Shown here: positions 1 to 22,183 of the stretch, piece after piece
Numbering within the stretch: the first letter of the stretch is position 1
How the letters are laid out: each line of letters starts with the position of its first letter
Origin: a virus
Virus record (IMG/VR): IMGVR_UViG_3300024433_000043
Span: 1 to 26,707 of that record
Direction: 5' to 3' (one strand)
Length of the DNA: 26,707 bases
Notes under the pieces: model-generated
Told to the model about the DNA's origin: nothing
Database searches by the model: none
The model's input: only the letters and a program-made list of their open reading frames with translations
Translations under genes and position numbers: made by a program

Positions 1-1362
1 ACAAGCGCGGAAGCTTTTGGACAACCTACTCTTGCTCCTGGTAATGTAGATATAGTTCCTAATGGTATTGTATCGCAAGAAGCATTTGGCAGTCCTACTT
101 TAGATTTGATAATTTACATTTCTAGTATTGATAGCTCTGAAGCATTTGGATCGCCTAGTGTTTTTCTTGCTCAGGATATAACTCCCAATAGTATTGTAAG
201 TGGGGAAGCCTTTGGCAGTCCTACTTTAGATTTGATAATTTACATTTCTAGTATTGATAGCTCTGAAGCATTTGGGAGTTTAACTTTAAAATACGATCAG
301 ACTACTGCTCCTGATAGCATCCCAAGTTCTGAGGCTTTTGGTCTGCTTGAGATTGGGATGGAGATAACAGGAGCTGGAAATATATCTTCTGAAGAAGCAT
401 GGGGAAATCCTATTGTTAGTAGAGGTCCTGTTTATGTGACTCCTAATAGTATTTTATCTGGAGAAGCATTTGGACAGCTTACGATTTCGGCTGGCAATAT
501 TTATATCCAGGCCACTTCCATTCCCAGTGGGGAGGCTTTTGGAAATGTAATTCTTAATATGGAAATAAAGCCGGATGGTATATCTTCGGCGGAAGCATTT
601 GGGGCTCCTACTATCTTACCGGGAAATGTAGGAATAACTTCTACTGGTATTGTTTCCGCCGAAGCATTCGGTGTTCCTACAATTGATTCTGGTGTCGTAG
701 TTATTGAGACTATTGGTATTGTGTCTGAGGAGGCCTTTGGGAGCCTTACGGTGGTTCGGGGTGGTGTTGCTGTTAGTGCTGGCAGTATAGCCACTGGCGA
801 GCAGTGGGGGAGCCCTACGATAGGAGCAGGGTCGGCCTATATACAAGCTGATAGCATACTATCTTCAGAGGCTTTTGGTTCAATCTCAATAAGTACCGGG
901 AACGTAAATATTGTTCCTAATGGTATTGAATCAGATGAATCTTTTGGTGTTCCTTATATCACAGTTGCAGGAGTTCAGATCTCACCTTATTCAATTGCAT
1001 CATCTGAGATTTTTGGTTCTTTGTCTATTGTTGTTAGTGGTGTGGAAATTCGTCCAATAAGTATAAATTCTGAAGAGCAGTTTGGGGAGCCAGAAGTTCT
1101 TGCTGGTAATGTAAATATTTCTCCAAATGGAATAGCATCTGCTGAGAGTTTTGGTTCTGTTAATATTGTACAATCTATACAAGTTGATTCTATTATTTCT
1201 TCAGAGGCTTTTGGTGCGGTCACTATTTCTACTGGTAATGTTGATATATCCCCAATAGGGATTGTATCTCAAGAAGCTTTTGGTTTGCATACTGTCCGGC
1301 ATGTTTTGATTCTTGATCTTACTGGTTCGGGTATTCCGAGTTCTGAGGGATTTGGAACTCCT
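1..1362 (+). repeat. Tandem EAFG protein-coding repeats, at least 21 copies
   Basis: Units of about 60-69 bases encode the core E-[A/S/Q/I/G]-[FW]-G preceded by I-x-S-x. Twenty-one cores can be counted, including variants EAWG, EQWG, ESFG, EIFG, EQFG and EGFG. Conservation is at the protein level: codons differ freely between most units, so the array is old and under coding constraint, apart from one recent duplication (85-275). The array is cut by the window edge, so the total copy number is unknown. Confidence 0.95.
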
Positions 1363-1716
1363 ATAGTGTTGGCAGTTGTTCTTAATTCATTTATGACACA
1401 GATGGAAACTGATCTTGAAGAGGGCTTCTTCAACGATGAAGAGTTTGCAGATGAGTATACTTATATCCATCAGAATGGTTACAGTTTCCCTCTTACTGGT
1501 ATCTTTGATGAAGATACTGTTCTAGTTGATCCTGATACGATGGCTTCTGTTACTTCAAGAAATCCTTTGTTCACTTGTCAAACTAGCGATTTCAAATTCT
1601 CCCCAACAAAAGGGGATAAGATGATTATAAATGGAACAAATTATCAAGTCGTACATGCAGAGCCAGACGGAACCGGAGTTTCAGAAATAGAGCTCCATTA
1701 TGAAAGGACAGTCTAG
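1..1716 (+). CDS. Head-tail joining protein with long N-terminal EAFG-repeat array (5' partial)
   Basis: The reading frame is already open at base 1, so the true start lies upstream; a TTG at 106 is in frame but inside the repeat array and is not a credible start. Bases 1-1362 encode at least 21 tandem copies of a 20-23 residue repeat with core S-x-E-A-F-G, usually followed by x-P-x-[IVL] and a beta-type stretch ending in P-x-x-I. Bases 1381-1713 encode a compact C-terminal domain of about 110 residues (landmarks FADEYTY, KGDKMIINGTNYQVV, DGTGVSEIELHYE) resembling lambda FII/Gifsy-2 type head-tail joining proteins, which act at the head-tail junction. Family members are normally only about 100-120 residues, so the repeats are an added module. 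The stop overlaps the next start by one base. The joining call is from motif resemblance and position before the tail terminator; the repeat function is unknown. Confidence 0.72.
   Translation, partial: TSAEAFGQPTLAPGNVDIVPNGIVSQEAFGSPTLDLIIYISSIDSSEAFGSPSVFLAQDITPNSIVSGEAFGSPTLDLIIYISSIDSSEAFGSLTLKYDQTTAPDSIPSSEAFGLLEIGMEITGAGNISSEEAWGNPIVSRGPVYVTPNSILSGEAFGQLTISAGNIYIQATSIPSGEAFGNVILNMEIKPDGISSAEAFGAPTILPGNVGITSTGIVSAEAFGVPTIDSGVVVIETIGIVSEEAFGSLTVVRGGVAVSAGSIATGEQWGSPTIGAGSAYIQADSILSSEAFGSISISTGNVNIVPNGIESDESFGVPYITVAGVQISPYSIASSEIFGSLSIVVSGVEIRPISINSEEQFGEPEVLAGNVNISPNGIASAESFGSVNIVQSIQVDSIISSEAFGAVTISTGNVDISPIGIVSQEAFGLHTVRHVLILDLTGSGIPSSEGFGTPIVLAVVLNSFMTQMETDLEEGFFNDEEFADEYTYIHQNGYSFPLTGIFDEDTVLVDPDTMASVTSRNPLFTCQTSDFKFSPTKGDKMIINGTNYQVVHAEPDGTGVSEIELHYERTV
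85..275 (+). repeat. Perfect 65-bp direct repeat inside the EAFG array
   Basis: Bases 85-149 and 211-275 are identical over 65 bp with an offset of 126 bp (42 codons, two protein repeats). Similarity continues imperfectly to the left of both copies. The surrounding units are far more diverged, so this is a recent in-frame duplication of two repeats. Confidence 0.93.
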
Positions 1717-2282
1717 TGGCTATTGTCGAAAAAAATAAGATACAACCTAGTCCTAGAATAGTTATAAGGAATAAGGCGAAGGAACTTTTGAAGGAGAATG
1801 TAGATGTAGCTGAGAGGGTGTTCTGCTCTCGGCCGAAACCTTTGTTCCTTACTGAACTACCAGCATGTCTAATCTATTTTACTAATGAAGAAGCGGATGA
1901 TGGAGATACGCGTCCTCGTGAGTATGAAAAGAAATTGATGCTCGTCACAGAAGTGGTGCATAGGTTGGAGTCTGTGCGGGATAATGCTCTTGATGATTTT
2001 CTTGACTCGCGGGCATGGGAAATAGAGCAGACGTTTTTTGCTGACAGGTTTATGGGATTAAAGGGATTAGTTAACGATATAACATTGAAGAGCACAGAAG
2101 CTCTTAATATCCAAATTGAGGGGGATGCAGATATTGCATCAGAGCGTCTTGTGTGGGAGATACAATACTATCAAGAAGCCTTTAATAATGGCGAGCTGGA
2201 TGAGTTCTTGAAATTTATTACTGAATATAAACCAACAAACAATGCAGATGCAGAAGACAATGTAACTATCCGGGAGGAATAA
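1716..2282 (+). CDS. Tail terminator / Mu gp37-like protein (DUF1834-type)
   Basis: 188 residues starting at GTG 1716, which overlaps the TAG of the preceding gene by one base. The position between the head-tail joining gene and a DUF2635-type gene matches Mu gp37. The C-terminal stretch around GDADIASERLVWEIQYY has the pattern seen in lambda U-like tail-terminator and minor tail proteins, which cap the tail tube and dock it to the head. The protein is soluble with no signal or membrane segment. Its TAA overlaps the next ATG, implying translational coupling. The family call rests on gene order plus this C-terminal pattern; the alternative is another small neck protein. Confidence 0.6.
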   Translation: MAIVEKNKIQPSPRIVIRNKAKELLKENVDVAERVFCSRPKPLFLTELPACLIYFTNEEADDGDTRPREYEKKLMLVTEVVHRLESVRDNALDDFLDSRAWEIEQTFFADRFMGLKGLVNDITLKSTEALNIQIEGDADIASERLVWEIQYYQEAFNNGELDEFLKFITEYKPTNNADAEDNVTIREE

Positions 2283-2506
2283 TGGAAAGAGTTATTATCA
2301 AGAAAGTCGAAGGACGTCTTGCGCGATTAGAAGATGGTCGTGAAGTTCCTGAGAGTGGTGTTGAGGTTACACGGAATTCTTACGTCAACAGACAGGTACT
2401 TGCTGGTGATGTTGAGGTCGTAACCAATGAAGAGAACAAAGACACAAAGAAATCACAGAAGAAAAATTCTAACAAAACTGAGGAGGTAGGCGATGACAAT
2501 TCCTAG
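2282..2506 (+). CDS. DUF2635-like small tail protein (Mu gp38 position)
   Basis: 74 residues. The first 45 follow the DUF2635 layout: a short beta start, a conserved arg/pro-rich turn (GREVPESGVEVT), an aromatic near NSYVNRQVLAGDVEVV, then a polar lysine/glutamate tail (about residues 50-74) not needed by the family. In Mu-like phages this small gene always precedes the sheath gene, as here. It starts on the stop of the upstream gene and overlaps the sheath start by 14 bases. The role is unknown; it probably works in tail assembly. Confidence 0.6.
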   Translation: MERVIIKKVEGRLARLEDGREVPESGVEVTRNSYVNRQVLAGDVEVVTNEENKDTKKSQKKNSNKTEEVGDDNS

Positions 2507-3959
2507 TACTCTTAGAGTCCCATTTGTATATGTGGAGTTCGATTCTAGTCGAGCATTCCAGGGACCTAGTCTTTTGAAGTATAAGGTTCTTTTGGTTGGA
2601 CAGAGATTGTCCACAGGCACGAAGCCAGAGTTAAACATTGACAAGATAACAAGCTACGATCAAGCGATGCAACTTTATGGAGTTGGTTCTCAGCTTTCTC
2701 GGCAGTTTAAAGCATTCTTCGCCAATGATAAAATCTCTGATGTTTATGGATGCAGTCTTGATGATGCAGGTTCTGGTATCGCTGCGACAGGGACATTTGT
2801 TATTGGTGGTTCTGCAACTGCGACAGGTTCTTTTATTGCATACGTTATGGGAGTTCGTTTTGCAGTGGCTGTCGCTTCCGGTGTTGCCGCGACTGCTATT
2901 GGTGACGCACTTGCGACTGCGATCAATGCAGATACTACGATGCCAGTAACTGCGAACAATGTAACTGGGACAGTTACTTTGACAGCACGAAACAAGGGCG
3001 AGGCTGGAAATGATCTTGATCTCAGGATCAATTATAATTCTGGTGAAGAGCTCCCTATTGGTGTTACTTGTACGGTAAATACAATGGGAAGTGTCGTTGC
3101 TGGAGCAAACAATCCGCTTCTTTCATCTGTTATCGCAATCCTTGGTGACGAGTGGTATAATGTTATTTCTGCTCCTTATTATGATGCTACAAATCTTGAC
3201 GCTATTGAGACAGAACTTGCTGACAGGTTCGGTCCTCTGCGGATGATTGACGGACAGTATATTACAAGCCGTCGTGGAACAGTTGGCACTCTGTCAAGTT
3301 GGGGCAATGCTCGGAATTCTAAGTTTGTTGAGGTTATGCACTCTCAGAAAATTCCAGGATACTCTCCTGAATTTGCATCCGCTCTTGCTGGTCAATTGGC
3401 ACAAGAGGCATCGGCTGATCCTGCTCGCCCATTCCAAACTCTTGAACTCGTGGGCATACTTCCCCCAGCGATTACAGAAAGATTTACGCTGGCAGAAAAT
3501 AATTCATTGCTCTATGACGGTATCTCCACGTTCTATGTTGACAATGGAGGCAAGGTTCGTATCCAGCGTGCGATTACTATGTATCAGACCAATGCTCTCG
3601 GAGCTGAGGATATTGCATATCTTGATGCGAATACATTGTTTACACTTATGTATCTGCGTTATGATTTCCGCACGCAAATTCTCACAAAGTATTCGCGCGC
3701 AAAACTGGCAGATGATGATGTTCAGATAGGAGCAGGACAGGTTGTAATGACTCCTAAGCTGGGGAAATCTGAAGCGATAAATATCTTCAGAGGTTGGCAG
3801 AATCTTGGTCTTACTGAAGATATAGATCAATTCAAAAATGATCTTGTCTGTGTTCGTTCGGAAACTGATCCTAACCGTCTTGAATGGATCCTTCCGCCTG
3901 ATCTTGTCAATCAGTTCCGTGTTGGAGCAGCGACGCTCCAGTTCTTGTTACAGGGTTAA
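2493..3959 (+). CDS. Contractile tail sheath protein (Mu gpL-like)
   Basis: 488 residues, the expected size of a Mu-type sheath subunit. AGGAGG at 2481-2486 sets the ATG at 2493 with 6-base spacing. The N-terminus (VPFVYVEFDSSRAFQG) and the C-terminal region rich in FNIFRGWQNLGL/DLVCVRSETDPNRL-type patterns followed by DLVNQFRVGAATLQF match the Mu sheath family. Residues about 95-200 form a gly/ala/thr-rich domain that would sit on the outside of the sheath. It polymerises around the tube and contracts to drive the tube into the cell. The following gene is the tube, as expected. Confidence 0.9.
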   Translation: MTIPSTLRVPFVYVEFDSSRAFQGPSLLKYKVLLVGQRLSTGTKPELNIDKITSYDQAMQLYGVGSQLSRQFKAFFANDKISDVYGCSLDDAGSGIAATGTFVIGGSATATGSFIAYVMGVRFAVAVASGVAATAIGDALATAINADTTMPVTANNVTGTVTLTARNKGEAGNDLDLRINYNSGEELPIGVTCTVNTMGSVVAGANNPLLSSVIAILGDEWYNVISAPYYDATNLDAIETELADRFGPLRMIDGQYITSRRGTVGTLSSWGNARNSKFVEVMHSQKIPGYSPEFASALAGQLAQEASADPARPFQTLELVGILPPAITERFTLAENNSLLYDGISTFYVDNGGKVRIQRAITMYQTNALGAEDIAYLDANTLFTLMYLRYDFRTQILTKYSRAKLADDDVQIGAGQVVMTPKLGKSEAINIFRGWQNLGLTEDIDQFKNDLVCVRSETDPNRLEWILPPDLVNQFRVGAATLQFLLQG

Positions 3960-4000
3960 TCTGTAAACTGTTCTTTATATAATTCAATTAGGAGGTAATG

Positions 4001-4366
4001 ATGGGCGATAACAGGGTTTCTGGTATCATCGAATTGAAAACAAACGGTGAGATCCAGAATGCGAAAGGAAGTTTCACTTATAATCTTGGACGTCTCAAGA
4101 AGGAGATGATCGTAGGTCAGGATCGTGTCCATGGATATAAGGCACTCCCGCAGGTCCCTTTCATAGAGGGGGAAATAACGGATCGCGGTAGTTTGAATCT
4201 TGAAACATTTATGGATGCTGACGATGTTACAGTGACTCTTTCACTTGCGAACGGGAAGGTAATAGTTCTCAAGGAAGGTGTCTATGCCGCAGATGGTGAT
4301 GGTTCAACTGAAGAGGCAAATATTCAAGCAAGATGGGAAGGTATGTCTTGTGAGGAAGTAAGATAG
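4001..4366 (+). CDS. Tail tube protein (Mu gpM-like)
   Basis: 121 residues counted from ATG 4001. An overlapping ATG at 3998 gives one extra Met but lies only 2 bases from GGAGG (3991-3995), while 4001 has the normal 5-base spacing, so 4001 is preferred. The length, all-beta character and landmarks (VSGIIELKTNGEI, AKGSFTYNLG, TVTLSLANGKVIVL, ANIQARWEGMSCEEV) fit the Mu-type tail tube family; the last motif is typical of the C-terminal tube strand. It stacks as rings inside the sheath and forms the DNA conduit. It lies directly between sheath and chaperone genes, the canonical place. Confidence 0.87.
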   Translation: MGDNRVSGIIELKTNGEIQNAKGSFTYNLGRLKKEMIVGQDRVHGYKALPQVPFIEGEITDRGSLNLETFMDADDVTVTLSLANGKVIVLKEGVYAADGDGSTEEANIQARWEGMSCEEVR

Positions 4367-4401
4367 TCTAGTTCTTTAACACAATTCTCAAGGAGTTTAA
4401 A

Positions 4402-4725
4402 ATGGCCAACGTAATTACGGCTAAGGATTTTGAGCAGATAGAAGGTGAAGTAGAACTCCCATTTACTCTCACATTGCGGGAACCTATTGAGTGGGGATCT
4501 GAGACGCGGGAAACAATTGTTATAACGAAGCGTCTTAAAGCAAAACATTTTAAAGGTATGCGAGGGTCTGATATGTCATTCACAGATCAGATATCCTTGA
4601 TATCTCAGGCGACTGTGGAACCTTTTGCTCTTATTGAGGAGATTGATGCTGGGGATTTCATGGTTCTTTCTAATGTCATAAATTCTTTTTTGCCTCCTGG
4701 CCTGACGACTGGCGACAATCGTTAG
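4402..4725 (+). CDS. Tail assembly chaperone, short form (Mu gp41-like)
   Basis: 107 residues. AAGGAG about 6-8 bases before ATG 4402 supports the start. The pattern LPFTLTLREPIEWG...ITKRLKAKHFKGM...DQISLISQATVEP...EEIDAGDFMVLSNVINSFL is that of the Mu gp41 / P2 E type chaperone family (E/41/14), which binds the tape measure before tube polymerisation. The position between tube and tape measure is diagnostic. A slippery heptamer near the 3' end feeds a minority of ribosomes into the longer product ending at 4847. Confidence 0.83.
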   Translation: MANVITAKDFEQIEGEVELPFTLTLREPIEWGSETRETIVITKRLKAKHFKGMRGSDMSFTDQISLISQATVEPFALIEEIDAGDFMVLSNVINSFLPPGLTTGDNR

Positions 4726-4847
4726 GTCTTTTCGCGTATCTGTTTAAATTTCAACCGAGTGAGATGTGGGAATTTGACGCTGGAGATATTGCGTTTTGGA
4801 AAGAAAGATCAGATGAAATAATCAAAAGTCTTAACAAGAAACGATAG
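4402..4847 (+). CDS. Tail assembly chaperone, -1 frameshift product
   Basis: Slippage by -1 at T TTT TTG (4686-4692) joins the first 97 codons of the chaperone to a 51-codon open frame ending in TAG at 4845-4847, giving about 148 residues. The extension (start ASWPDDWRQSLG, then LFAYLFKFQPSEMWEF and DAGDIAFWKERSDE) has the W-rich, LA-x-x-F, P-x-E-x-x-x-M, W pattern of the second part of chaperone pairs in Mu and P2. The extension has no plausible independent Shine-Dalgarno start. Conserved frameshifting between these two cistrons is established in tailed phages; the exact site here is read from the sequence. Confidence 0.8.
4686..4692 (+). promoter_or_regulatory. Programmed -1 ribosomal frameshift site TTTTTTG
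   Basis: The zero frame reads T TTT TTG, an exact X-XXY-YYZ heptamer. After a -1 slip both tRNAs re-pair with TTT. The site is 31 bases before the zero-frame stop, and the -1 frame is open to 4847. This is the expected position for the tail chaperone frameshift. Confidence 0.8.
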
Positions 4848-4856
4848 AGGGTTCTC

Positions 4857-6671
4857 ATGGGGATTCAGCCAATTAGGATAGTCATCCAAGGTGTTGACAA
4901 GTTTTCCAGTACGATAGCCAAGTCTCAAAAGAGAATTGACAAGTTTGGGAAATCAATGTCGCGCGCTGGACGTTCTATGACGATGGCATTGACTGTCCCA
5001 CTAGTTACGATGGGAGTCGCCGCTCTCAAGACTACTGCAGATTTTGAGCAGTCTATGTTGAGAGTTGGGAATTTGACAGGAGCAACGGGGAAGCAATTCG
5101 CGGCTCTCGAGTCTCAAGCAAGAGACTTGGGAGCTACGACTTTGCACACGGCATCCCAAGCCGCAGAGGGTATGGGTTTCTTGGGGATGGCCGGTTTTAA
5201 AACTAATGAGATTATGTCTGCGATGCCAGCGACTCTTGATCTTGCAACTGTCGCACAGATAGAACTTGGTAGGAGTGCAGATATAGTATCTAATGTATTG
5301 ACCGCATACAATAAAGATGCATCTGAGACGGTTGCGGTTGTAGACCTTATGACAGACACGATGAACTCTGCCAACACAAATATGGAACAACTTGCAGAGG
5401 CGATGAAATTTGTAGGTCCTATCGCTGCAGGAATGAAGATACCAATTGACCAGACAGTGACTGCGATAGGACAATTATCTAATGCAGGTATCCAAGGTGC
5501 AATGGCTGGAACACAATTGCGCGGAGTTCTTGCAATGCTTGCAGACCCTTCAAATAAGGCAAGATCTGCTCTTGCACGTTTGGAGATTCCTAAATCGGCT
5601 ATAGTTGATACAAGTGGAAATATAAAAGATCTCGGAGAAGTTATTCGTGCCTTTGGGGAATCAGGAGCAACGACCGCGGATATGCTACAAATATTTGGGA
5701 GGAGAATTGGTCCAGGAATGGTTGCTCTTGTAGGTCAAGGACACAAAGCATTTGCAGAATTAAATACTGATCTAAAAGATAGTGCTGGAGAAGCACGTAA
5801 GTCTGCAGAAGCTTTTGAGAAGTCATTTACTGGAGAACTTAAAACTCTTGTGAGTGCTCTGCAAGAGTTTGGAATTTCTATGATAAAAGATACAGGCATC
5901 TTGGCGTCGTTCACTAGCAAGATTAAGAAGGTTACAATATTTGTCCGTAACCTTGCGAAAGCTAATCCTCAACTACTTAAGATGGGAGCAATTTTTGCGG
6001 CGATAGTTGCCGTCGCTGGTCCACTCCTAGTTATCTTTGGAACACTCATCTCCAGTGTCGCAACTATTGGAGGGGCTATAGCTGGAGCGGGAGGCATGAT
6101 GGCGATACTTCTGAATCCAGTTACACTTATGATCGCAGGTATTGGCGTCCTTATTGGGATGTTTGTTGCAATGCGTGAGAAGTTTGGGATGAGTATTAAA
6201 GATATGGCAGTTGGTTTTCTTGCATTCACTGGTCCTGTAGGGTTGTTCGCTAGTGTCTTTATAAATAACTGGGGAAAGATATTGCCATTTATCAAGCTCT
6301 TCGGGATAACGATGTTAGGGTTAGGAAAGATATTGTTGTATGTTATGTGGCCATTCTTTAAGATCCTAGAGTTAATAGGCAAAGCTCTTTCCTTTGTTGT
6401 GGGTAAGATACTTGATTTACTTAGTGCGATCACTAGGATTGCGTTGCCTAAATGGTTAGAGAAAAAGATAGGTCTGACGCCAGGAGTTGAGCAAGCTCCT
6501 TCTACTCCTGATCTTAGTGCAGATGCTCTTATGGCTGGCGTTAGTAATGTAAATACGAATAAGAATGAAACGACTTTAAAAATTGAAGATAGAGCAGGAG
6601 TTAAAATTACTTCAGAAACAACGAGTGGGACTATAGACACCGAGGTTACTCGCGGTCTTGCGTTTCCATAG
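4857..6671 (+). CDS. Tail tape measure protein (TP901-type)
   Basis: 604 residues. The ATG at 4857 follows AGAGGG by a normal spacing and comes 9 bases after the frameshift product ends. Residues about 15-340 are alanine-rich helices with the TP901/PhageMin_Tail core (MTMALTVPLVTMG, TADFEQSMLRVGNLTGAT, QAAEGMGFLGMAGF, AGIQGAMAGTQLRG). Residues about 370-520 hold several strongly hydrophobic segments, usual for tape measures that enter the host membrane at ejection. The C-terminal 80 residues are polar. The protein sets tail length and is packed inside the tube; by the usual rule of about 0.15 nm per residue the tail would be near 90 nm, an inference only. Confidence 0.92.
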   Translation: MGIQPIRIVIQGVDKFSSTIAKSQKRIDKFGKSMSRAGRSMTMALTVPLVTMGVAALKTTADFEQSMLRVGNLTGATGKQFAALESQARDLGATTLHTASQAAEGMGFLGMAGFKTNEIMSAMPATLDLATVAQIELGRSADIVSNVLTAYNKDASETVAVVDLMTDTMNSANTNMEQLAEAMKFVGPIAAGMKIPIDQTVTAIGQLSNAGIQGAMAGTQLRGVLAMLADPSNKARSALARLEIPKSAIVDTSGNIKDLGEVIRAFGESGATTADMLQIFGRRIGPGMVALVGQGHKAFAELNTDLKDSAGEARKSAEAFEKSFTGELKTLVSALQEFGISMIKDTGILASFTSKIKKVTIFVRNLAKANPQLLKMGAIFAAIVAVAGPLLVIFGTLISSVATIGGAIAGAGGMMAILLNPVTLMIAGIGVLIGMFVAMREKFGMSIKDMAVGFLAFTGPVGLFASVFINNWGKILPFIKLFGITMLGLGKILLYVMWPFFKILELIGKALSFVVGKILDLLSAITRIALPKWLEKKIGLTPGVEQAPSTPDLSADALMAGVSNVNTNKNETTLKIEDRAGVKITSETTSGTIDTEVTRGLAFP

Positions 6672-6679
6672 GGGATAAT

Positions 6680-7858
6680 ATGCCTTGGATAGATTCTTTC
6701 AGACAGGCCAAATTTCGGAACGCATCTTTTTTTGTTCCATCCGCTGAGAACTCAGGTGGTCGTAGACTTGCCGTCAATGAGTTCCCTAAAGAAGAGAAGC
6801 CTGATGTTGAAGATATGGGTAGGAAAGCCCGCAGATATAATATAGATGCCTATATCTTAGGCGATGAATACTTCGGTCCTCGAGATACGCTTGTAGATGC
6901 CCTTGAGAAAGAAGGCCCTGGAATATTAGTACATCCATATCTTGGTAATATTACAGTCTCGGTTTCTACATACTTATTCAGAGAAACCGTTCAAGAAGGC
7001 AGGATGGTTCGGTTCACTATTAGTTTCGTAGAGACTGGTGAACGAGAATTTCCAACTACGATTATTGATACAGTAACAGACGTCGCGTTGAAAAAACAAA
7101 CAGCGTTAGACGCTTGTAGAACAGCCTTGTCGCGTGTGTATTCAATTGCACAAGTCCCGTACTCTGTATCACAAAATGCTATCAGTACAATAGATGACGG
7201 TCTTTCTCTGATAGGTGATTCTAAAAGGATCGTGTCCGCTGTATCTGATTTCTCACGCGACCTTGAGAATGCACAAGGAAGAGTGATACAGCTCGCGTAC
7301 GATGTTGTTGATTTAGGACAGGAGACTGTTGATCTTATATCTTTCGGCACGCTGACAAGTGACGATTTTCCAGCTACTCCTGAGAACTCACGGGATCAAT
7401 TTTTTGAGATGAAAGATATGTGGGATTATGTCCCTGAAGAGCAGATAATTATAGATAGTCCTGCTAGTCAATACGCAGATTTCTTCCAGAACGTATCTAT
7501 TGTGAATGGTCTTAGTATGTTGTCAATACTTGAGTATACAAGTCTTGAAGAATCTGAAGAGCTTAGAGATATCGCCTTTAAAAAACTTGAAGAAATACTT
7601 CTTAGTGTTACGGATGACGACCTGTATATTTCTCTATATGATTTACGGACGGCAGTGTCAAGAGACACAGATAGACGTGGTCGTAAGCTCCCAAGGCTGG
7701 CAGAGTTTGTTCCTAATGTCTCCCTCCCAGCGATTGTGCATTCGTATTCTTTGTATGGTACAATTGATGAGGAGCAGGATATTATTGACAGAAACGCAAT
7801 ACGTCATCCAGGAATGGTTCCGGGTGGTGTGCCTTTAGAAGTTAAGATTTCTGTTTAG
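6680..7858 (+). CDS. DNA circularisation / tail protein N (Mu gpN-like)
   Basis: 392 residues, start ATG 6680 eight bases after the tape measure stop. The first 115 residues carry the DNA_circ_N signature: W-x-D-S-F-R-x-A-x-F-R at the start, then RRLAVNEFP and the FGPRDTLVDALEKEGPGILVHP stretch typical of the N-terminal module. The rest is helical and polar with a glu/asp-rich C-terminal region. In Mu, gpN is a structural tail/baseplate component placed after the tape measure, matching this location; the circularisation name comes from related phages and need not describe the role here. Confidence 0.82.
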   Translation: MPWIDSFRQAKFRNASFFVPSAENSGGRRLAVNEFPKEEKPDVEDMGRKARRYNIDAYILGDEYFGPRDTLVDALEKEGPGILVHPYLGNITVSVSTYLFRETVQEGRMVRFTISFVETGEREFPTTIIDTVTDVALKKQTALDACRTALSRVYSIAQVPYSVSQNAISTIDDGLSLIGDSKRIVSAVSDFSRDLENAQGRVIQLAYDVVDLGQETVDLISFGTLTSDDFPATPENSRDQFFEMKDMWDYVPEEQIIIDSPASQYADFFQNVSIVNGLSMLSILEYTSLEESEELRDIAFKKLEEILLSVTDDDLYISLYDLRTAVSRDTDRRGRKLPRLAEFVPNVSLPAIVHSYSLYGTIDEEQDIIDRNAIRHPGMVPGGVPLEVKISV

Positions 7859-7866
7859 GAGTTACT

Positions 7867-8019
7867 ATGAAGAAGACAATTGAAAAAATAAAGTTCTATA
7901 TGGAAATTATAACTTTCTGCGGGACTCTTATAGGAGGGTTCTGGTTTGGTGTTGTTAAACCTGCTCTTCAGGATATAATACATGAGGAAATAGTCTATAC
8001 TAATTTTTTTAGTATTTGA
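7867..8019 (+). CDS. Small single-span membrane protein, probably frameshifted
   Basis: The ATG at 7867 is 6 bases after GGAG and encodes 50 residues: a basic/amphipathic start (KKTIEKIKF), one hydrophobic segment (about residues 12-34, with GTLIGGFWFGVV) and a short tail ending at TGA 8017-8019. Just before the stop is a run of seven T (8004-8010). The +1 frame after this run is open to TAA 8111-8113 and adds a charged helix (DEQLERADKKFKAYKKF) that looks like a natural continuation. That frame contains no ATG, GTG or TTG, so it could be made only by slippage or if the extra T is an error. It would then overlap the next gene start (8100). I do not recognise the family. Confidence 0.6.
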   Translation: MKKTIEKIKFYMEIITFCGTLIGGFWFGVVKPALQDIIHEEIVYTNFFSI

Positions 8020-8113
8020 GATTATTTCGGATGAGCAATTAGAAAGAGCAGATAAGAAGTTTAAGGCTTATAAAAAATTCAAAGATTATGGGATAGAAGA
8101 TGCCGAAAGATAA
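8004..8113 (+). other. Out-of-frame continuation of the 7867 gene after a T7 run
   Basis: Removing one T from 8004-8010 fuses the 7867 frame to about 35 more codons ending at 8113, giving a protein near 82 residues with one membrane span and a charged cytoplasmic or periplasmic helix. The extension lacks any start codon of its own. Confidence 0.5.
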
Positions 8114-9206
8114 GATATCGTTATCCGTTGACAATAAGATACTAACAGGTTGGAAGTCTGTGAGTATCACACGGTCTCTAGATGCATTGGCAGATACTTA
8201 TCAATTTAATATGTTGGATGTATGGAGTCCTGAGGATACACCGCTGACTCCTGATAAGGAAATACAAATTTACGTAGATAGGGATGTTTCTGTTTCACAG
8301 TTGCAGACACTTGTTCTTACTGGTTATATTGATAATCCTAATATTAAGGTTGGGAATAATAGTAATAATGTTGCGATAAAAGGACGATCTAAAACTGGAG
8401 ATCTTGTTGATTGTTCTGCAGAATTTTTACCATCTAATTCTTGGAACAAAGTCCAGTTCTCAACTATTGTTAGAGACCTGTTATTAAACTATGATATAGG
8501 ATTGGATTTTATTTCTGGGACGGCTGTCGGGAAAGATGCCTCTTTAGATTTATCAATCAATAGTGGCGAATCTATCTTTGAAATAATAGATAGGATAAGT
8601 AAAAAACTAGGGATACTGCCAGTTACAAATCCTAATGGTAATCTTGAATTGATAACGACAGGAGATAGACGTGCTCAAGATAAATTGATTTTTGGACGAG
8701 GATTGAAAAACGTATCTGGGGATTTTGATTATTCAGATAGGTTCTCACATTATACAGTTAGAGGGCAAAGGAGTGGGGATGGCGGTGGATGGAAAAAATC
8801 CACTAATGAAATTTCTTCAAATGCTACAGATGAAGTCTTTGGTTCTCGTTATCGTCGAAAGATTGTATCCCTTAGTAGTAAAGGGACACTTAAGGATGCA
8901 CAGAACCAAGTAAGATGGGAAGCACAGATAAGGGCTGGAAAGTCTGGCTCTGTTGAGGTCGCACTTCCAAGTTGGTTTCAAAGTAATAATGAGATATGGG
9001 AAGTTGGGACTTTGGTATACACTGAAATTCCACCTCTTGATATAGCTGAAGAACTTCTTATTAAGGATGTTACTTTGGATCAGAATTCTGGTGGATCTTC
9101 GGCTGGTCTTACACTTGTTAATAAAGATACATATACTAAAGATCCATCTGCGAATGTTAAGATAACAAAGAAATCTAAAAAGAAGGGTTTTGGCTTCGGC
9201 TGGTAA
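8100..9206 (+). CDS. Baseplate hub protein (Mu gpP / gp44-like)
   Basis: 368 residues, near the usual length for Mu gpP. Landmarks are the N-terminal beta domain with SVSITRSLDALADTYQF, the DKEIQIYVD and LVLTGYIDN strands, the central IKGRSKTGDLVDC, and GESIFEIIDRISKKLGIL, the late-control/hub motif shared by Mu gpP, P2 gpD and T4 gp27. The C-terminus is lysine/glycine-rich (KKSKKKGFGFGW). It forms the central hub on which the spike sits. It lies directly before the gp45 spike gene, with only 2 bases between. Confidence 0.85.
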   Translation: MPKDKISLSVDNKILTGWKSVSITRSLDALADTYQFNMLDVWSPEDTPLTPDKEIQIYVDRDVSVSQLQTLVLTGYIDNPNIKVGNNSNNVAIKGRSKTGDLVDCSAEFLPSNSWNKVQFSTIVRDLLLNYDIGLDFISGTAVGKDASLDLSINSGESIFEIIDRISKKLGILPVTNPNGNLELITTGDRRAQDKLIFGRGLKNVSGDFDYSDRFSHYTVRGQRSGDGGGWKKSTNEISSNATDEVFGSRYRRKIVSLSSKGTLKDAQNQVRWEAQIRAGKSGSVEVALPSWFQSNNEIWEVGTLVYTEIPPLDIAEELLIKDVTLDQNSGGSSAGLTLVNKDTYTKDPSANVKITKKSKKKGFGFGW

Positions 9207-9208
9207 CT

Positions 9209-9820
9209 ATGGATTTCTCGGCACAATTAAATCGTATACTAGAGCCTATTAGGAACAGGATAACGATGCTCATTAGTCAAGCTGTCGTGTCCCTTGTGGA
9301 TGATTCTACTGCGATGCAGTTGTTACAGATAAAGATTGGCAAAGATGAAGTCAAGAACAATGTTGAAAGGATACAGACCTACGGTTTGTCAAGTCATCCA
9401 CTGCAAGATGCAGAGGTCTTGGCTTGTGCTGTCAATGGTAATAAGGACCATATTATCGCTGTCGCTGTGGATGATAGTAGATATAGGATAAAGGGTCTAC
9501 CAGAAGGCGGTGTCGCCCTATATGACTACGATGGGAATGTTATTAAGTTGACGAAAGATGATGGGATTCTAGTAGATGCTCCTAACGCAGATGTCAATAT
9601 AAAAGCTTCTGGTGATATAAATATTGGGAACTCATCTTTGAAAAAATTAGTAAATGATTCTTTTAAGACTCTGTTTAATTCGCATACACATAGTTGTGTA
9701 GGAGTCACCGGGACTATTGCAATCCCTGCTCTTACATGTGCAATTACAGCCGGGAGTTCTTTGTTACCAAATGAGCAAATGGATGATGGACATCTAACCA
9801 GCAAAGTAGAGGCAGAATAA
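9209..9820 (+). CDS. Baseplate puncturing spike (Mu gp45-like)
   Basis: 203 residues. The N-terminal half has the OB-type fold region of Mu gp45 (SLVDDSTAMQLLQIK, VERIQTYGLSSHPLQDAEVL, GLPEGGVALYDYDGN). The middle forms short beta-helix repeats (VNIKASGDINIGN). Near the end is H159-T-H161, the His-x-His pair that in Mu- and P2-type spikes binds iron at the trimer tip. In those phages the trimer pierces the outer membrane. No lysozyme domain is fused. The gene sits between hub and gp46 as in Mu. Confidence 0.88.
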   Translation: MDFSAQLNRILEPIRNRITMLISQAVVSLVDDSTAMQLLQIKIGKDEVKNNVERIQTYGLSSHPLQDAEVLACAVNGNKDHIIAVAVDDSRYRIKGLPEGGVALYDYDGNVIKLTKDDGILVDAPNADVNIKASGDINIGNSSLKKLVNDSFKTLFNSHTHSCVGVTGTIAIPALTCAITAGSSLLPNEQMDDGHLTSKVEAE

Positions 9821-9821
9821 T

Positions 9822-11174
9822 ATGTCAGATATATACAATCCTTCTTTTGACCATCCTACGTTCAATGCGTCAGACTATGCGTCTGTAGGTGGCTCTGTCA
9901 GTATACATCCCACTAATGGATTGACATACGGACCTCTGCTCCCGCATTACTATATTTGTAGAGTAGATAGTTTTCCTATGCGTATTTTTAATTCTCGAGT
10001 GAGAGTGAAAGCTAATTGGAATGATTCTACTGTCGTTTCTTTTGGTGGAAGTTCTCCCATATCATTGAGATTTTGGAATGGTGTATCTGGTCCTGGGTCA
10101 GATTATATAAATGTAACAATAAACACTAGACCATCATCTTTTGGGAATGCTAGTTGGGATGTTCAAGTATTTACACAACAAACAGGAACGATATATAATA
10201 GTGGAAGTATGCCGATGACAGCCGGTCTACTTGGCGATACAGATATACAGATTAGTGTGGGACATGATAAGGGTTCCGGCAATTGCGATATCGCTATAAA
10301 TGTTACGAATACTAGACACTTGTTCGCATGGGCTGGAGGCCTGTCAAATTATAGCCCTCTATCTCCGATATACGATTGGGAAGCATCTTTCAATGCGAGC
10401 CATATTGAGCAAGGACAATATAGTTGTTCTGAGTTGGAAGTCGATGCGTCGCAATTAACCGCTCCCCAGAGTATTGGAACTTCAGAAGCATTCGGTCTTT
10501 TAACTATACCGCCATTGCCAGGAACAGAAATTACACCATATAGTATATTATCTGAAGAAGCTTTTGGTGCTCCTATTACTTCTGTAGGTCTTGTGTATAT
10601 CTTACCGGATAGTATCCCTTCTGTGGAAGCTTGGGGATTGCCTACGTTGACAAAAACAACATATCCGTTCTCGATACTTCCTGAACCAACAGAGCCTCTT
10701 AGTGGGGATATGCGTTTATATTTTGACGTAGATAAGCAATATGGGGAAATAGGATTAGCTGACAGAGATGTGGAGCGTGATCCTGGTCTTGAGACGGCTG
10801 TAATTATTACACTATTGACTGATCGTAGAGCAGATGAAGATGATGATTTACCAGATGATAATGGATACAAGGGTGGTTCGTGGCAGGATGGTGTTCCTGT
10901 TGTAGAGGGGTATCTTACAGGAACAAAGCTCTGGCTCTTGCGTCGTTCTAAAACAGTTGATGAGATACCAACACTTGCGAAGCAATTCCTTACAGAAGGG
11001 TTTCAATGGATGATAGATGATGGAGTTGTGGAATCGGTACTGGTTGCAGTTGAAAGACGTAGAGATATCGAGAACACATTAGGAATGTCTTTGTCATTTG
11101 TTAGACCAAACGAACCTACAATTTTTTATAAATTCTTTTATAATTGGGAAGAGCAATTACTAAGGAGACAGTAA
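9822..11174 (+). CDS. Baseplate gp46-like protein with N-terminal lectin-like region and three EAFG repeats
   Basis: 450 residues, about three times the normal gp46 length. Residues about 1-212 are beta-rich, aromatic and glycine-rich, resembling a concanavalin/LamG-type sandwich; this fold call is a guess from composition. Residues 217-278 hold three EAFG repeats (E222, E246, E269; the last is EAWG). Residues about 290-450 are the conserved gp46/GPW-gp25-like domain: GDMRLYFDVDKQYGEI, LETAVIITLLTDRRADEDDD, KGGSWQD and the VLVAVERRRDIENTLGM strand. gp46 is the wedge protein that contacts the hub and sheath in Mu. One base separates it from both neighbours, so the extension is inside a normal baseplate operon. 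Confidence 0.82.
   Translation: MSDIYNPSFDHPTFNASDYASVGGSVSIHPTNGLTYGPLLPHYYICRVDSFPMRIFNSRVRVKANWNDSTVVSFGGSSPISLRFWNGVSGPGSDYINVTINTRPSSFGNASWDVQVFTQQTGTIYNSGSMPMTAGLLGDTDIQISVGHDKGSGNCDIAINVTNTRHLFAWAGGLSNYSPLSPIYDWEASFNASHIEQGQYSCSELEVDASQLTAPQSIGTSEAFGLLTIPPLPGTEITPYSILSEEAFGAPITSVGLVYILPDSIPSVEAWGLPTLTKTTYPFSILPEPTEPLSGDMRLYFDVDKQYGEIGLADRDVERDPGLETAVIITLLTDRRADEDDDLPDDNGYKGGSWQDGVPVVEGYLTGTKLWLLRRSKTVDEIPTLAKQFLTEGFQWMIDDGVVESVLVAVERRRDIENTLGMSLSFVRPNEPTIFYKFFYNWEEQLLRRQ
10464..10652 (+). repeat. Three EAFG protein-coding repeats in gp46
   Basis: The three cores are TSEAFG, SEEAFG and SVEAWG, separated by about 23 residues, with the same I-x-P-x-x-I-x-S lead-in as the array at 1-1362. 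They link the lectin-like N-terminal region to the conserved gp46 domain. Confidence 0.92.
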
Positions 11175-11175
11175 G

Positions 11176-12291
11176 ATGGCATACGAAAGACCAACAATAT
11201 CTGAGATTAAAGATCGAATAGAAAAAGGAATAGAGTCTAGGCTCTTTGGTAAGACTGCTCTATTACGAGTTGCTTTATTAAGAATTCTTGCGAGAGTTTT
11301 TGCTGGTAGTCTACACGCTCTCTATGGTTATCTTGCTTGGATAACAGATCAATTATTTGTTACAACCGCGTCTGAGTTTTTTCTAGAGAACATGCACGGA
11401 AATATGTGGAGAGTTCCTCGTAAGGGAGGTTCTTTTGCTTCTGGCACTGCTATATTTTCAGGTACGAACGGAACACTAATTGATACAGACACGCGATTAC
11501 AGAACGATCAAGGCATTGAGTATGGAACCACATTACCAGTTACGATTTCCGGCGGAGTTGCATCTGTCAGTATACAAGCAATTGAGTCTGGTGAGGATGG
11601 CAATCTACTAAGAACTAATCCACCAGACCCAGTATATCTACAGATGGTTTCAACACTTGCAGGAGTTGACGATGAAGTAGAAATAGATGGAGATATAACC
11701 GGAGGAATTGACAAAGAGGATCTCGAAGACTATAGGTCAAGGATTCTTCAAAGAATTCAAAATCCTCCGGCTGGTGGTTCTTCAGCAGACTATGTAAGAT
11801 GGGCAACAGAAGTAGATGGTGTTGTACGTGCATGGTGTTATCCACTTGCAAATGGTCCTGGAACAGTCACGACCGTGATTACAGCATTCGGTTCTGATCC
11901 CGTCCCTAGTTCTTTGCTTGTATCTGATACACAGAATCATATTGAAGTCGTGCGTCCTGTTACTGCAGATCAGACCGTTGCATCAATAACTGACTCTTTA
12001 GGAGTTGACGGAAAGGCATTATTCGATTTTAATATATTACTTCCATCTGGTGAGAATGTATCTGATGTGCAGAGTAATATTATTGATAATATAGAAGCGT
12101 TATTTCTACCGCATCGTCCGGGAACGACTGTACCTATATCTCAGATAAGATCTGCAATATCTACATCCGGTGTTTCTGATTATACAATACAAGCAATAGA
12201 TGTAGATAGTGTTTCTGTATTTATTGAAAATATTGTATTGACGGGATACGCTTATCCTTGGCTTGATTCTATAACCTTTGGAGATCTATAA
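11176..12291 (+). CDS. Baseplate J-like wedge protein (Mu gp47-like)
   Basis: 371 residues, the standard length. It follows the gp47/baseplate J layout: a helical N-terminus ending in TASEFFLENMHGNMWRVPR (the family has LDxhAxxxGixR), beta domains with GTAIFSGTNGTLIDTDTRL, GVASVSIQAIESGEDGNL, a central EDLEDYRSRILQRIQNPPAGGS-type motif followed by DYVRWATEVDGVVRAWC, and a C-terminal region with ALFLPHRPGTTVPISQIRSA. It forms the baseplate wedge dimers. It begins one base after gp46 and ends one base before gp48. Confident from several motifs and from position. Confidence 0.92.
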   Translation: MAYERPTISEIKDRIEKGIESRLFGKTALLRVALLRILARVFAGSLHALYGYLAWITDQLFVTTASEFFLENMHGNMWRVPRKGGSFASGTAIFSGTNGTLIDTDTRLQNDQGIEYGTTLPVTISGGVASVSIQAIESGEDGNLLRTNPPDPVYLQMVSTLAGVDDEVEIDGDITGGIDKEDLEDYRSRILQRIQNPPAGGSSADYVRWATEVDGVVRAWCYPLANGPGTVTTVITAFGSDPVPSSLLVSDTQNHIEVVRPVTADQTVASITDSLGVDGKALFDFNILLPSGENVSDVQSNIIDNIEALFLPHRPGTTVPISQIRSAISTSGVSDYTIQAIDVDSVSVFIENIVLTGYAYPWLDSITFGDL

Positions 12292-12292
12292 A

Positions 12293-13282
12293 ATGGCATA
12301 CCTGCAAGAACTTATTCCACAAAGGTTTTTTGATCGTTGGGATTATCTGCGCTCTTTGCGTGCTCTCCTCCCCAGAGGCATAGCATGGCAAATACCGCTC
12401 CCAAATGAAATTGATATACAACCAGTAGGCATCGTATCTGGCGAGGCTTTCGGACGCCATACGGTATCGTCAGGCGAGGTATATATCACTCCTAATGGTA
12501 TTGTATCTAGCGAGGCTTTTGGGCTTGCCTATGTTTTACCAGCACAAGATGTGGAGCTTATTGGTATTGTAAGCGCAGAAGCTTTTGGTGTTCCTTCTGT
12601 ACTCTTTGGACAGGTTATTTCAGAACCTTCTGGTATTGAATCACAGGAAAATTTTGGAAGTCCAATTATTGTTAATTCTCAGTTTATTACTCCTATTGGG
12701 ATAGTATCTGGAGAGGTTGTATCTGATGCCGGTGTTTGGAATAATTTGCTTATATATGACGATTTTGATGGCGGCGTTCTGAATCCGGCATGGGATGCGC
12801 AATTCAAAAGTGGATGGGGAATTGAGACAGAAGCTGGTGAGAATTATGCTGAATCTCCAACAAATAATGACGATTGGCTATATCCTACGCATCCGTCAAG
12901 TGTGAAGGCTGGAGAATTTGAAATCCATTTTGGATACTGGCGGAGTGCTGGCGGAAATAACTCTGTACATTTTAAATTCTATAACACTGCTTCTGCATTC
13001 AGATTTGATTCTTATTTTTGGAATGGTGTTATCTATGGTTTAAATGGTGGACAGTTTACAATGGCTTCTGGTCCAGCAGAACAAAGAATGAAAATAGTCC
13101 GGGATGGTGGTGGTATTATCTGGGCTTATTATTGGAATGGGTCTGCTTGGATACGAGAAGATGCTTGGTCTACTCCTGGTTCATCTTTTAATAATAATGA
13201 GAATTTATGGCTGGCAGTTAATGGTGGAGCTGGAGAAAATGGATTCTCGCATATCTATATAATGGGGACTTTCCAACCATGA
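12293..13282 (+). CDS. N-terminal part of gp48/DUF2313 fused to EAFG repeats and a lectin-like domain
   Basis: 329 residues from ATG 12293, which has GGAG at 12280-12283; an in-frame TTG at 12278 lies inside the upstream gene and is rejected. Residues 1-36 contain LRSLRALLPRGIAW, the hallmark start of DUF2313 (Mu gp48). The conserved domain then stops. Residues 42-146 are four EAFG repeats plus a decayed fifth (SGEVVSDAG), and 150-329 form a beta-rich, tryptophan- and glycine-rich region resembling a concanavalin-like glucanase/LamG fold. The protein ends in TGA overlapping the ATG of the next frame (ATGA at 13279-13282), which carries the rest of DUF2313. The cassette has thus divided gp48; the two halves probably reassociate. 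Confidence 0.75.
   Translation: MAYLQELIPQRFFDRWDYLRSLRALLPRGIAWQIPLPNEIDIQPVGIVSGEAFGRHTVSSGEVYITPNGIVSSEAFGLAYVLPAQDVELIGIVSAEAFGVPSVLFGQVISEPSGIESQENFGSPIIVNSQFITPIGIVSGEVVSDAGVWNNLLIYDDFDGGVLNPAWDAQFKSGWGIETEAGENYAESPTNNDDWLYPTHPSSVKAGEFEIHFGYWRSAGGNNSVHFKFYNTASAFRFDSYFWNGVIYGLNGGQFTMASGPAEQRMKIVRDGGGIIWAYYWNGSAWIREDAWSTPGSSFNNNENLWLAVNGGAGENGFSHIYIMGTFQP
12410..12730 (+). repeat. EAFG protein-coding repeats in gp48 (four plus one decayed)
   Basis: Cores SGEAFG, SSEAFG, SAEAFG and SQENFG occur at 20-23 residue spacing, then SGEVVS lacking F-G. The 17-base string CCTAATGGTATTGTATC is shared exactly with the first array (58-74 and 12491-12507), suggesting DNA-level exchange between loci. 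Confidence 0.92.
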
Positions 13283-13785
13283 TATTTACAAAATATTTAG
13301 GGAAACTCTTAATGGCTTTTGCTGTAGAGCTTGAGAAATTTGAAGATGCAGTAACAGACTTGAGACGGGAAGCTGTTCCCGGACTATCTCGGTCTTTACT
13401 TGACAGGTGGGAAACTGATCTTGGCTTGCCAGATGATGTTCCTCTTCCTTATCAGTCCGTAGAGGAAAGAGCACAGATTGCACATGCAAAGTATACAGCC
13501 AATTACTCAGGACAGAGTAAAGAATTCTTTATAGAATATGCCGCGAAACTCGGTGCTGTTATTACGATACAGGAATATGCTGGATATACTAGTATCTTCA
13601 GGGTAGATAAGAATCGTGTTGACAGGATGCCAGTTGAGGGGATTGATGGATCAAGATTGTGGTCTCTTCACTCAAAGTATAAATGGACAATAGAAGTCAT
13701 ATCGTTAGACACGGTAAGTTTGGAATATTTACAGTATCGTATTGGGGAGATAGCTCCTGCACATACGATTATAATATGGATATAG
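13279..13785 (+). CDS. C-terminal part of gp48/DUF2313 baseplate protein
   Basis: 168 residues. The start codon overlaps the stop of the upstream half as ATGA, so reinitiation is likely; there is no strong Shine-Dalgarno. The sequence picks up the DUF2313 domain where the upstream half leaves it: a helical segment (FAVELEKFEDAVTDLRREA), then SLLDRWETDLGLPDDVP, the diagnostic WE-x-x-LGLPD motif, EERAQIAHAKYTANYSGQS and EYAAKLGAVITIQEY. The domain continues to the end (ISLEYL...GEIAPAHTII). In Mu both parts are one protein of about 190 residues at the baseplate periphery next to the fibre. Confidence 0.85.
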   Translation: MIFTKYLGKLLMAFAVELEKFEDAVTDLRREAVPGLSRSLLDRWETDLGLPDDVPLPYQSVEERAQIAHAKYTANYSGQSKEFFIEYAAKLGAVITIQEYAGYTSIFRVDKNRVDRMPVEGIDGSRLWSLHSKYKWTIEVISLDTVSLEYLQYRIGEIAPAHTIIIWI

Positions 13786-20570: not shown

Positions 20571-20816
20571 ATGCCTGATAATTTTCAGATTAAGAAACCG
20601 TCGTTATCATCTTTGAAGAAAATGAATTCTGAAGAGTTGACTGCATTGTCTGCTAAGATGACTTCTATCAAAGATCAATATCTTTTTGTGTATAAGGAAA
20701 CACAGAAAGCTATCCATGCTGAATTGGAAACAACTCAGAAGCAAGAGCAGGATAAGAGACGCAAAGATGATCCTGATTATGACAAGAAGCATCAAGGAGT
20801 AGGGATCCATAAATAA
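20571..20816 (+). CDS. Small charged helical protein of unknown function
   Basis: 81 residues from ATG 20571, chosen because AAGGAG lies just upstream and because the in-frame start at 20511 is inside the terminator stem. After a short N-terminus the protein is one long charged helix (EELTALSAKMTSIKDQYLF, KAIHAELETTQKQEQDKRRK) able to form a coiled coil, with a basic end. Its TAA overlaps the helicase ATG (TAATG), so the two are probably translated together and it might be a partner of the helicase. Confidence 0.68.
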   Translation: MPDNFQIKKPSLSSLKKMNSEELTALSAKMTSIKDQYLFVYKETQKAIHAELETTQKQEQDKRRKDDPDYDKKHQGVGIHK

Positions 20817-22183
20817 TGCGGAGACCTTTGAGAAAATATCAGAAGCCAATGCTTAAGTATTGTCTTTCAACTGATAATCCAGCACTGTTCGTACAGATGC
20901 GGTTGGGAAAAACACTAGTGACAATTCGCTCTTGTAAAATTAGAGGAAATAAAAAAATACTAGTCGTAGCCCCATATTCTGCTCTGTACGGATGGCTCCT
21001 GGAATTGATAGCTGAAAGATATTCTGAAGATAGTATTATTGAGGTGTTCGGTTCTGGTAAAGACCGCAGAGCTTTACTAGATGCAACTTTTGAGACCGCT
21101 CAATGGTTTCTCTTTAATAAAGAAGGCCATCGAATATTCCCAGAAATTGCAGACTACCCTTTTGACTGTGTTATCGTTGATGAATCTACTTTTATAAAAT
21201 CTCCTGCTAAGAATTCTAAAGGGACTAAAAAACCGAATGCTACGAAATTCTATTGTGAGAATTTTAGAGAAGCAAATAATAGATACATACTAACAGGCAC
21301 TCCCGCTCCTGAGTCTGAGTTAGAATACTATAGTCAATTACAGTTTCTTGATCGTAAAATATGGAGAGAAAAAAACTTTTGGGAATTTCGACACAAGAAT
21401 TTTGCGATGATAAACTACACTCCATATCTATCACCATCTGGTTCTAAATATTTGGCGAATACGCTGGCAAAGAATTGTATGTTTTTAACGCGATACGAAT
21501 GCAAAGTTGGAGGCAAAAAAATATATCAGAAACGTAAGATAATTCTAGCTGATAAATTCAAAAAGATATACAATAAAATAGAGAAAGAATTTGTGCTTGA
21601 GTATATGAAACAAGAACAGGAAACTATTTATGCGACCACTAAATATGTCTGGCTTAGAAGGCTCTGCGGTGGTTTTATAGATCAAGAATTTGTATCATAT
21701 GCTAAAATTAAAGAAGTAGAAAGTCTGTTGAAGACTGAGTTAAAAAACGAACAAGTAATAATAATCGCAAAGCATATAAACGAAGTTAAAAAATTGACGA
21801 AATATCTTTCAAAAGATTTTGCAGTGGGGATGGTATATGGTGCTGTCACAAAGAAAAAAAGACCTGCCATTTATCAAGCCTTCCAAGATGGCAATTTAGA
21901 TTTGATAATTGCACAAGCTGGATGCATAAGTCACGGAACAAATTTATCAGCTTCTGACACTGTGATATTCTACACCACTCCTGACGGTGGAGAAACACGC
22001 GAGCAGGTTGAAGACAGGGTCGTTAATACAGCGACCAACGATTCATCGTTGATTATTGATCTAATATTCTCTGGGACTGTTGAAGAAGATGTCATAGGCA
22101 ATCTACGTAGGAAAGAAGGCAGACAGGCTCTTATGAGACGTATCGTAAAACGCTTGACAAAAAAGTATAGGATCGCAGCATGA
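20816..22183 (+). CDS. SNF2/DEAD-like superfamily 2 helicase
   Basis: 455 residues. Motifs in order: Q-like start (RPLRKYQKPMLKYCL), motif I M28-R-L-G-K-T33 (Arg where most have Gly), Ia LVVAPYSALYGW, motif II D122-E-S-T, motif III L159-T-G-T-P-A-P165, motif V AGCISHGTNLSAS (about 368-380) and motif VI Q397-V-E-D-R401. The spacing and the LTGTPAPES and R-x-x-Q-x-x-D-R patterns fit compact phage SNF2-type helicases. It uses ATP to move on or remodel DNA during replication or recombination. Its stop overlaps the resolvase start by four bases (ATGA). Confidence 0.88.
   Translation: MRRPLRKYQKPMLKYCLSTDNPALFVQMRLGKTLVTIRSCKIRGNKKILVVAPYSALYGWLLELIAERYSEDSIIEVFGSGKDRRALLDATFETAQWFLFNKEGHRIFPEIADYPFDCVIVDESTFIKSPAKNSKGTKKPNATKFYCENFREANNRYILTGTPAPESELEYYSQLQFLDRKIWREKNFWEFRHKNFAMINYTPYLSPSGSKYLANTLAKNCMFLTRYECKVGGKKIYQKRKIILADKFKKIYNKIEKEFVLEYMKQEQETIYATTKYVWLRRLCGGFIDQEFVSYAKIKEVESLLKTELKNEQVIIIAKHINEVKKLTKYLSKDFAVGMVYGAVTKKKRPAIYQAFQDGNLDLIIAQAGCISHGTNLSASDTVIFYTTPDGGETREQVEDRVVNTATNDSSLIIDLIFSGTVEEDVIGNLRRKEGRQALMRRIVKRLTKKYRIAA

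Follow-up and report, generated by a model that had tools for sequence, protein, structure and literature searches.

Main

A described system with arms at the phage neck is the neck passage structure of lactococcal 936 phages, which carries carbohydrate-binding modules (PMC6669499), and the domains of lactococcal neck proteins are exchanged and shuffled between phages (PMC10684548); carbohydrate-binding modules and domain shuffling at phage necks are thus already known. Here we analyse a stretch of 26,707 bases that makes up the entire viral record IMGVR_UViG_3300024433_000043 of IMG/VR (hereafter, the window) and holds a Mu/P2-like contractile-tail gene cluster. Three of its virion proteins, namely the head-closure protein Hc1 at the neck (encoded by open reading frame 1, ORF1) together with gp46 and gp48 of the baseplate wedge, carry tandem copies of one short repeat, the EAFG repeat, which probably forms stalks that present exchangeable adhesin tips on three different virion anchors.

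Like the lactococcal neck passage structure, the window phage has variable, exchanged domains at its neck, putatively of carbohydrate-binding type. The lactococcal structure, however, is built on a separate collar protein with six helical fibres, whereas here the arm and Hc1 form one polypeptide and the putative stalk consists of beta-type repeats of 23 residues. The C-terminal domain of ORF1 is alike in sequence and fold to lambda gpFII and other Hc1 proteins (PF05354; PDB 8k37 and 8gtf), but the known members span only ~100–120 residues and lack the ~820-residue tip-stalk extension of ORF1. Viral fibre repeat stalks such as triple beta-spirals likewise place short beta repeats between an anchor and a receptor-binding tip, but differ from the EAFG array in consensus and period. 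The same repeat is found in the mycobacteriophage ‘minor tail proteins’ Kumao gp32, McProf gp72 and Konstantine gp36, where it is also joined to beta-type domains; these differ in having few, N-terminal units (as read out in two of the proteins), in belonging to the tail rather than the neck, and in lacking an Hc1, gp46 or gp48 anchor. We found no description of the repeat family, or of a long repeat stalk with an exchangeable tip on a head-closure protein, in the literature searched, which leaves subscription journals mostly outside, and a literature text search for the string EAFGTPTV found no paper naming it.

A 23-residue repeat in three unrelated virion proteins

The EAFG unit has 23 residues and the consensus VxIxPxGIxSxEAFGxPxIxxG. 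Counted directly, the units of the window lie 20–24 residues apart (23 in most cases), with 21 in ORF1, three in gp46 and four clear ones plus one decayed in ORF 12278–13282, which encodes the N-terminal piece of gp48; these numbers agree with those of a first-pass annotation made from the sequence alone, which had also recognised one repeat family in three non-homologous proteins of the neck and baseplate, a reading that the present analysis supports. A strict motif occurs 19, 3 and 4 times in the three proteins, roughly three orders of magnitude above the means of shuffled proteins (0.006, 0.004 and 0.001, all ~0.01 or fewer), and is absent from every other reading frame of the window. The relevant features, all on the + strand, are as follows.

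1..1716, +, ORF1, an EAFG array fused to the head-closure protein; its 5′ end is cut by the window start (complete in L009:13-2829)
1..1377, +, 21-unit EAFG array of ORF1, acidic (47 D/E, 6 K/R)
49..275, +, two-unit (126-bp) tandem duplication within the ORF1 array; copies 49–149 and 175–275 share 89% identity and an exact match of 65 bases
1420..1713, +, Phage_attach/head-closure Hc1 (gpFII-like) domain, the neck anchor (PF05354, E = 5.8e-15)
9822..11174, +, gp46 with an N-terminal extension (Pfam)
9822..10454, +, putative N-terminal tip of gp46, ~211 residues, no detectable relatives
10455..10664, +, three EAFG units of gp46 (direct unit count, approximate coordinates)
10788..11111, +, GP46 baseplate wedge domain, the anchor (PF07409, E = 4.2e-25)
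12278..13282, +, gp48 N-terminal segment (LLPRGIAW), 4–5 EAFG units and a C-terminal tip-like domain; the probable true start is the ATG at 12293
12413..12733, +, four clear EAFG units and one decayed in the gp48 piece (direct unit count, approximate coordinates)
12734..13279, +, 182-residue beta-rich domain of lectin-like appearance, no detectable relatives
13279..13785, +, remainder of gp48 (the anchor), cut off from its N-terminus by the insert (PF10076, E = 9.1e-16; ATGA overlap with 12278–13282)

No Pfam or NCBIfam model covers the EAFG array, and it has no sequence match in the PDB. The repeat regions do match the PHROG profiles phrog_13352 and phrog_8501, both ‘minor tail proteins’ that contain the EAFG repeat, with E values of 6.9e-63 for ORF1, 2.1e-15 for ORF 12278 and 0.0017 for gp46. 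The first-pass annotation had compared the repeats to Ig-like domains, and the likeness holds for the role, as Ig-like decoration domains are likewise a mobile surface module on several virion proteins, but it does not extend to the domain itself: these domains span ~90 residues, far more than a unit of 23 residues can hold, and no Pfam Ig model matches the arrays at E ≤ 1, with He_PIG (the searches covered Ig/Big domains) appearing only in the flanking part of L045-type proteins.

The repeat stands between variable tips and virion anchors

The C-terminal domain of ORF1 reaches 56.1 bits against PF05354, exceeding the curated cut-off of 26, and its AlphaFold model, with a predicted local distance difference test (pLDDT) score mostly of 70–90, matches the stopper proteins of R4C (8gtf, E = 3.4e-5) and the lambda neck (8k37, E = 4.2e-5). 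What precedes the array can be read in L009, a record that is 99.94% identical to the window and extends further upstream. There, the complete ORF1 frame has 939 residues, of which a ~355-residue N-terminal part, LamG-like and matching DUF2341 (E = 6e-6), precedes the array; in the relative L015, the equivalent part matches both DUF2341 and Laminin_G_3. The repeat therefore has a tip on one side and an anchor on the other, a pairing that the first-pass annotation could not see because the window begins inside ORF1.

This arrangement is typical. The flanks of the repeat are highly diverse across 106 distinct repeat proteins, and the repeat usually links a tip of variable type (LamG/ConA-like, DUF2341, beta-helix, LRR-like or Gly-rich) to a virion anchor; 17 of the 69 N-terminal flanks tested match Laminin_G_3 (LamG_3), four a beta-helix, four DUF2341 and three He_PIG, while in mycobacteriophage and Rctr197k proteins the repeat stands before large beta-type domains. 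An anchor at one end is confirmed for the Hc1 and GP46 domains and for gp48, whose anchor is made up of the N-terminal segment and, in the following ORF, the remaining part.

Among the sheath relatives of the window phage, arrays of 3–22 units with a tip occur on Hc1 in 14 loci (L009, L010, L012–L018, L021, L024–L026 and L039), corresponding to 13 distinct proteins as L016 repeats L015, whereas Hc1 is bare in L027, L029, L032 and L033. The tips on this one family are unrelated to each other, ranging from LamG to an LRR_5-like domain in L012 (E = 3e-4, below the cut-off) and a Gly-rich one in L017. The length of the array tracks the anchor, as complete Hc1 arrays mostly have 17–22 units and those of gp46 and gp48 1–5. 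In L023 (5799-6191), a nearly bare Hc1 carries a single N-terminal unit (MISPTSVASSNSFGSFRVSRP), which may be a remnant or a seed of arrays.

The two baseplate proteins also have bare relatives, in L023, L025–L028, L030, L034, L038 and L039 for gp46 and in L023, L027, L030 and L034 for gp48. The gp46 of L020 bears another large extension, unlike that of the window, with one degenerate unit. In L039, gp48 is a single ORF. At the site of the window's insert, after the motif LLPxGxxW (LLPSGPLW in L039), the gp48 proteins of L025, L026 and L039 (18903-20522) hold a ~330-residue insert of propeller-like appearance. Because this insert and that of the window are unrelated but occupy one site, the N-terminus of gp48 is an insertion hot spot. 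The domains flanking the repeats had been described as intact, which is true of PF05354 in ORF1 and PF07409 in gp46; the Gp48 domain (PF10076), by contrast, is split into the next ORF. Likewise, the proposal that the repeats are a modular decoration stands in so far as they are an add-on, given the bare Hc1, gp46 and gp48 of relatives, but the repeat is not added alone: nearly always it comes joined to a tip, as the stalk half of one module.

Tips are exchanged independently of their anchors

Between the window and L010, synonymous divergence (dS) is 0.016 in the tip, compared to 0.56 in the array, 0.25 in Hc1, 0.55 in the terminator and 0.82 in the sheath, so the tip was shared recently and the remainder is old. 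In L024 (3800-4430) and L039, the flanking windows are 100% identical whereas the LamG tip is only 65–85% identical across ~630 bp, and their arrays differ by one unit. L014 and L017, in turn, have unrelated tips on Hc1 domains that are 80% identical. Tips are exchanged independently of anchors, and, judged from these comparisons, the pattern is that expected of host-recognition domains.

It bears on a different explanation, in which tips and arrays are a general virion decoration that binds non-receptor matter such as particles or extracellular polymer, as has been suggested for Ig-like domains, and keeps the phage near hosts without host choice. Several anchors per virion would suit such a role, LamG/ConA-type tips are common in non-specific glycan binding, and lactococcal phages set a precedent, with carbohydrate-binding modules on their neck, tail and Dit proteins (PMC6669499). 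A generic binder, however, need not diversify by sharply localised tip exchange between identical flanks, and we consider this explanation unlikely. The near-identical pair L024 and L039, differing in the tip, offers a natural experiment on tip function.

The arrays themselves change by tandem duplication, as seen in the two-unit block of ORF1, which was duplicated recently given its 65-base exact match. This 126-bp duplication would also fit a scenario in which repeat DNA spreads by recombination with little benefit and is tolerated in surface-exposed termini. So would the adjacent genes of L042, L045 and L046, where two different neighbours both carry arrays and share strings of 41–80 bases (P ≤ 0.01, 100 resamplings), although some of this sharing could stem from repeats mis-assembled in the metagenomes. 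Exchange of units between genes is seen in this other phage group, and in L045 (3660-9912), L042 and L046 the adjacent LamG and beta-helix/LamG/Ig proteins have near-identical, apparently homogenised arrays. Yet three observations make such spreading very improbable as the main explanation: cross-gene DNA similarity in the window is no more than expected from codon resampling, the array is under purifying selection, relaxed relative to Hc1 (ratio of non-synonymous to synonymous rates, dN/dS, of 0.40 versus 0.11), and the repeat accompanies tips and virion proteins across phyla.

For the window, a 17-base string common to ORF1 and gp48 had been taken to show that units move between genes. The string has in fact 18 bases, and the longest strings shared between the three pairs of genes (18, 14 and 14 bases) have P values of 0.06, 0.32 and 0.06 under synonymous-codon resampling, that is, given the conservation of the protein. 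Within ORF1, codon agreement reaches 0.43, much as between ORF1 and the other two genes (0.41–0.44; 0.37 is expected), and a nearest-neighbour test of the gp46 and gp48 units is ambiguous, as their own ORF1 ranks 2 of 71 by best match and 46 of 71 by mean. The hopping of units among the three genes of the window is therefore not supported. L091, a further candidate for two repeat proteins exchanging units, was also discarded, as both are halves of one split ORF1.

A proposed tip-and-stalk plan for three anchors

The reading we favour is that each EAFG unit is a short beta-rich element and that tandem units hold a variable tip off a virion anchor. One tip-stalk plan would have been grafted onto the Hc1 stopper at the neck and onto gp46 and gp48 at the baseplate; recombination would swap tips between phages while the anchor is inherited vertically, and tandem duplication would alter the length of the array. 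The tips would bind host surface glycans, with the array acting as a stalk and not as a binder. Baseplate arms adjoin the cell surface and would need just 3–5 units, whereas the neck arm, a DUF2341 and LamG tip on 21 units, would in principle be long enough to reach the surface along the tail. As tails usually measure 0.15 nm per residue of tape measure, the 604-residue tape measure protein predicts a tail of ~90 nm, compared to at most ~155 nm for the 458 array residues when fully extended, so that an arm from the neck could span the distance to the surface. With its longest array fused to the head-closure protein and two short ones to baseplate proteins, the window phage suggests that even the neck carries host-touching arms.

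Alternatively, the repeats themselves could bind, as a multivalent acidic array that is perhaps Ca2+ dependent, with the terminal domains secondary. The array does hold 47 acidic against 6 basic residues, some arrays end the protein with no downstream anchor, and every unit has an invariant Glu and Gly and an aromatic residue: among 98 units with spacing 23, I is present in 97%, S/T, E, F/W and G in 100%, a second G in 86% and P in 50–56% at two sites, with the figures for E, F/W and G being partly by construction because the motif used to gather the units fixes them. These conserved positions are, however, alike across unrelated hosts, as those of a structural core would be, and close relatives vary chiefly in the tip, which makes binding by the array improbable.

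Several points weigh against the tip-and-stalk reading. When the array was modelled with AlphaFold, a check proposed in the first-pass annotation, its pLDDT was ~50–58 in two runs, also with 53 in-register rows, which is too low to show a rigid stalk; at this confidence the modelled array is beta-rich, with strands recurring at about one-unit spacing, and the low score could reflect an intertwined oligomer, flexibility or a lack of signal. Comparing the second array model to BFVD returned two weak matches (template modelling scores of 0.69 and 0.61, E about 1), one of them a minor tail protein of Mycobacterium phage Hawkeye, and neither is used as evidence for a fold. Furthermore, Hc1, gp46 and gp48 are each present in six copies per virion, a number with no obvious match to a trimeric fibre; at least 41 of the 69 N-terminal flanks have no Pfam match; and the Hc1 of L018 bears a short array of ~5 units. 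Finally, searches with the terminal parts of gp46 and gp48 found only the same phage and no profile match to LamG groups, and because no homologues were detected, it is by their position and composition that we call them tips.

A broader proposal, which we hold tentatively and with a little under even confidence, is that, in a widespread group of phages, the head-closure protein is a platform for exchangeable receptor-binding arms, that host range is partly set at the neck, that arm length is tuned to the distance between anchor and surface, and that phages of many bacterial phyla use the EAFG unit as a general component of their virion arms. The data suggest that an essential neck plug is able to carry exchangeable arms.

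The repeat is widespread among phages

The possibility that similar repeats exist elsewhere, raised in the first-pass annotation, is borne out by profile and motif searches. A strict-motif scan found the repeat in at least 301 viral contigs, 80 of which were retained for analysis, in at least 51 of 50,697 phage records, 49 of them mycobacteriophages, in one plasmid record and in at least 19 loci of prokaryotic genomes (actinobacteria, Chloroflexota, proteobacteria, Desulfobaccales and Gemmatimonadota); these counts are lower bounds because the scan requires the exact motif. In each of the four genome loci examined for their neighbourhood, phage genes (terminase, portal, tape measure and tail) adjoin the repeat. 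As it is present in many other phage proteins, the repeat does not belong to one family as a fixed component.

A single name and profile could now serve a repeat annotated as ‘minor tail protein’ or ‘hypothetical’, and the repeat points to host-recognition parts in phages without a recognised tail fibre. Its presence in isolated mycobacteriophages brings a structure within reach. In the Microcystis phage Mwe-JY26 (L140:3038-5542), a variant unit (ASGIQDGDTFGSSVAQRGSVTV) suggests a superfamily broader than EAFG.

Elsewhere in the window, positions 20816–25464 hold a replication and repair cluster in which, beside unassigned ORFs, there are Pfam matches to an SNF2-type helicase, a uracil-DNA glycosylase and an AAA_24 ATPase.

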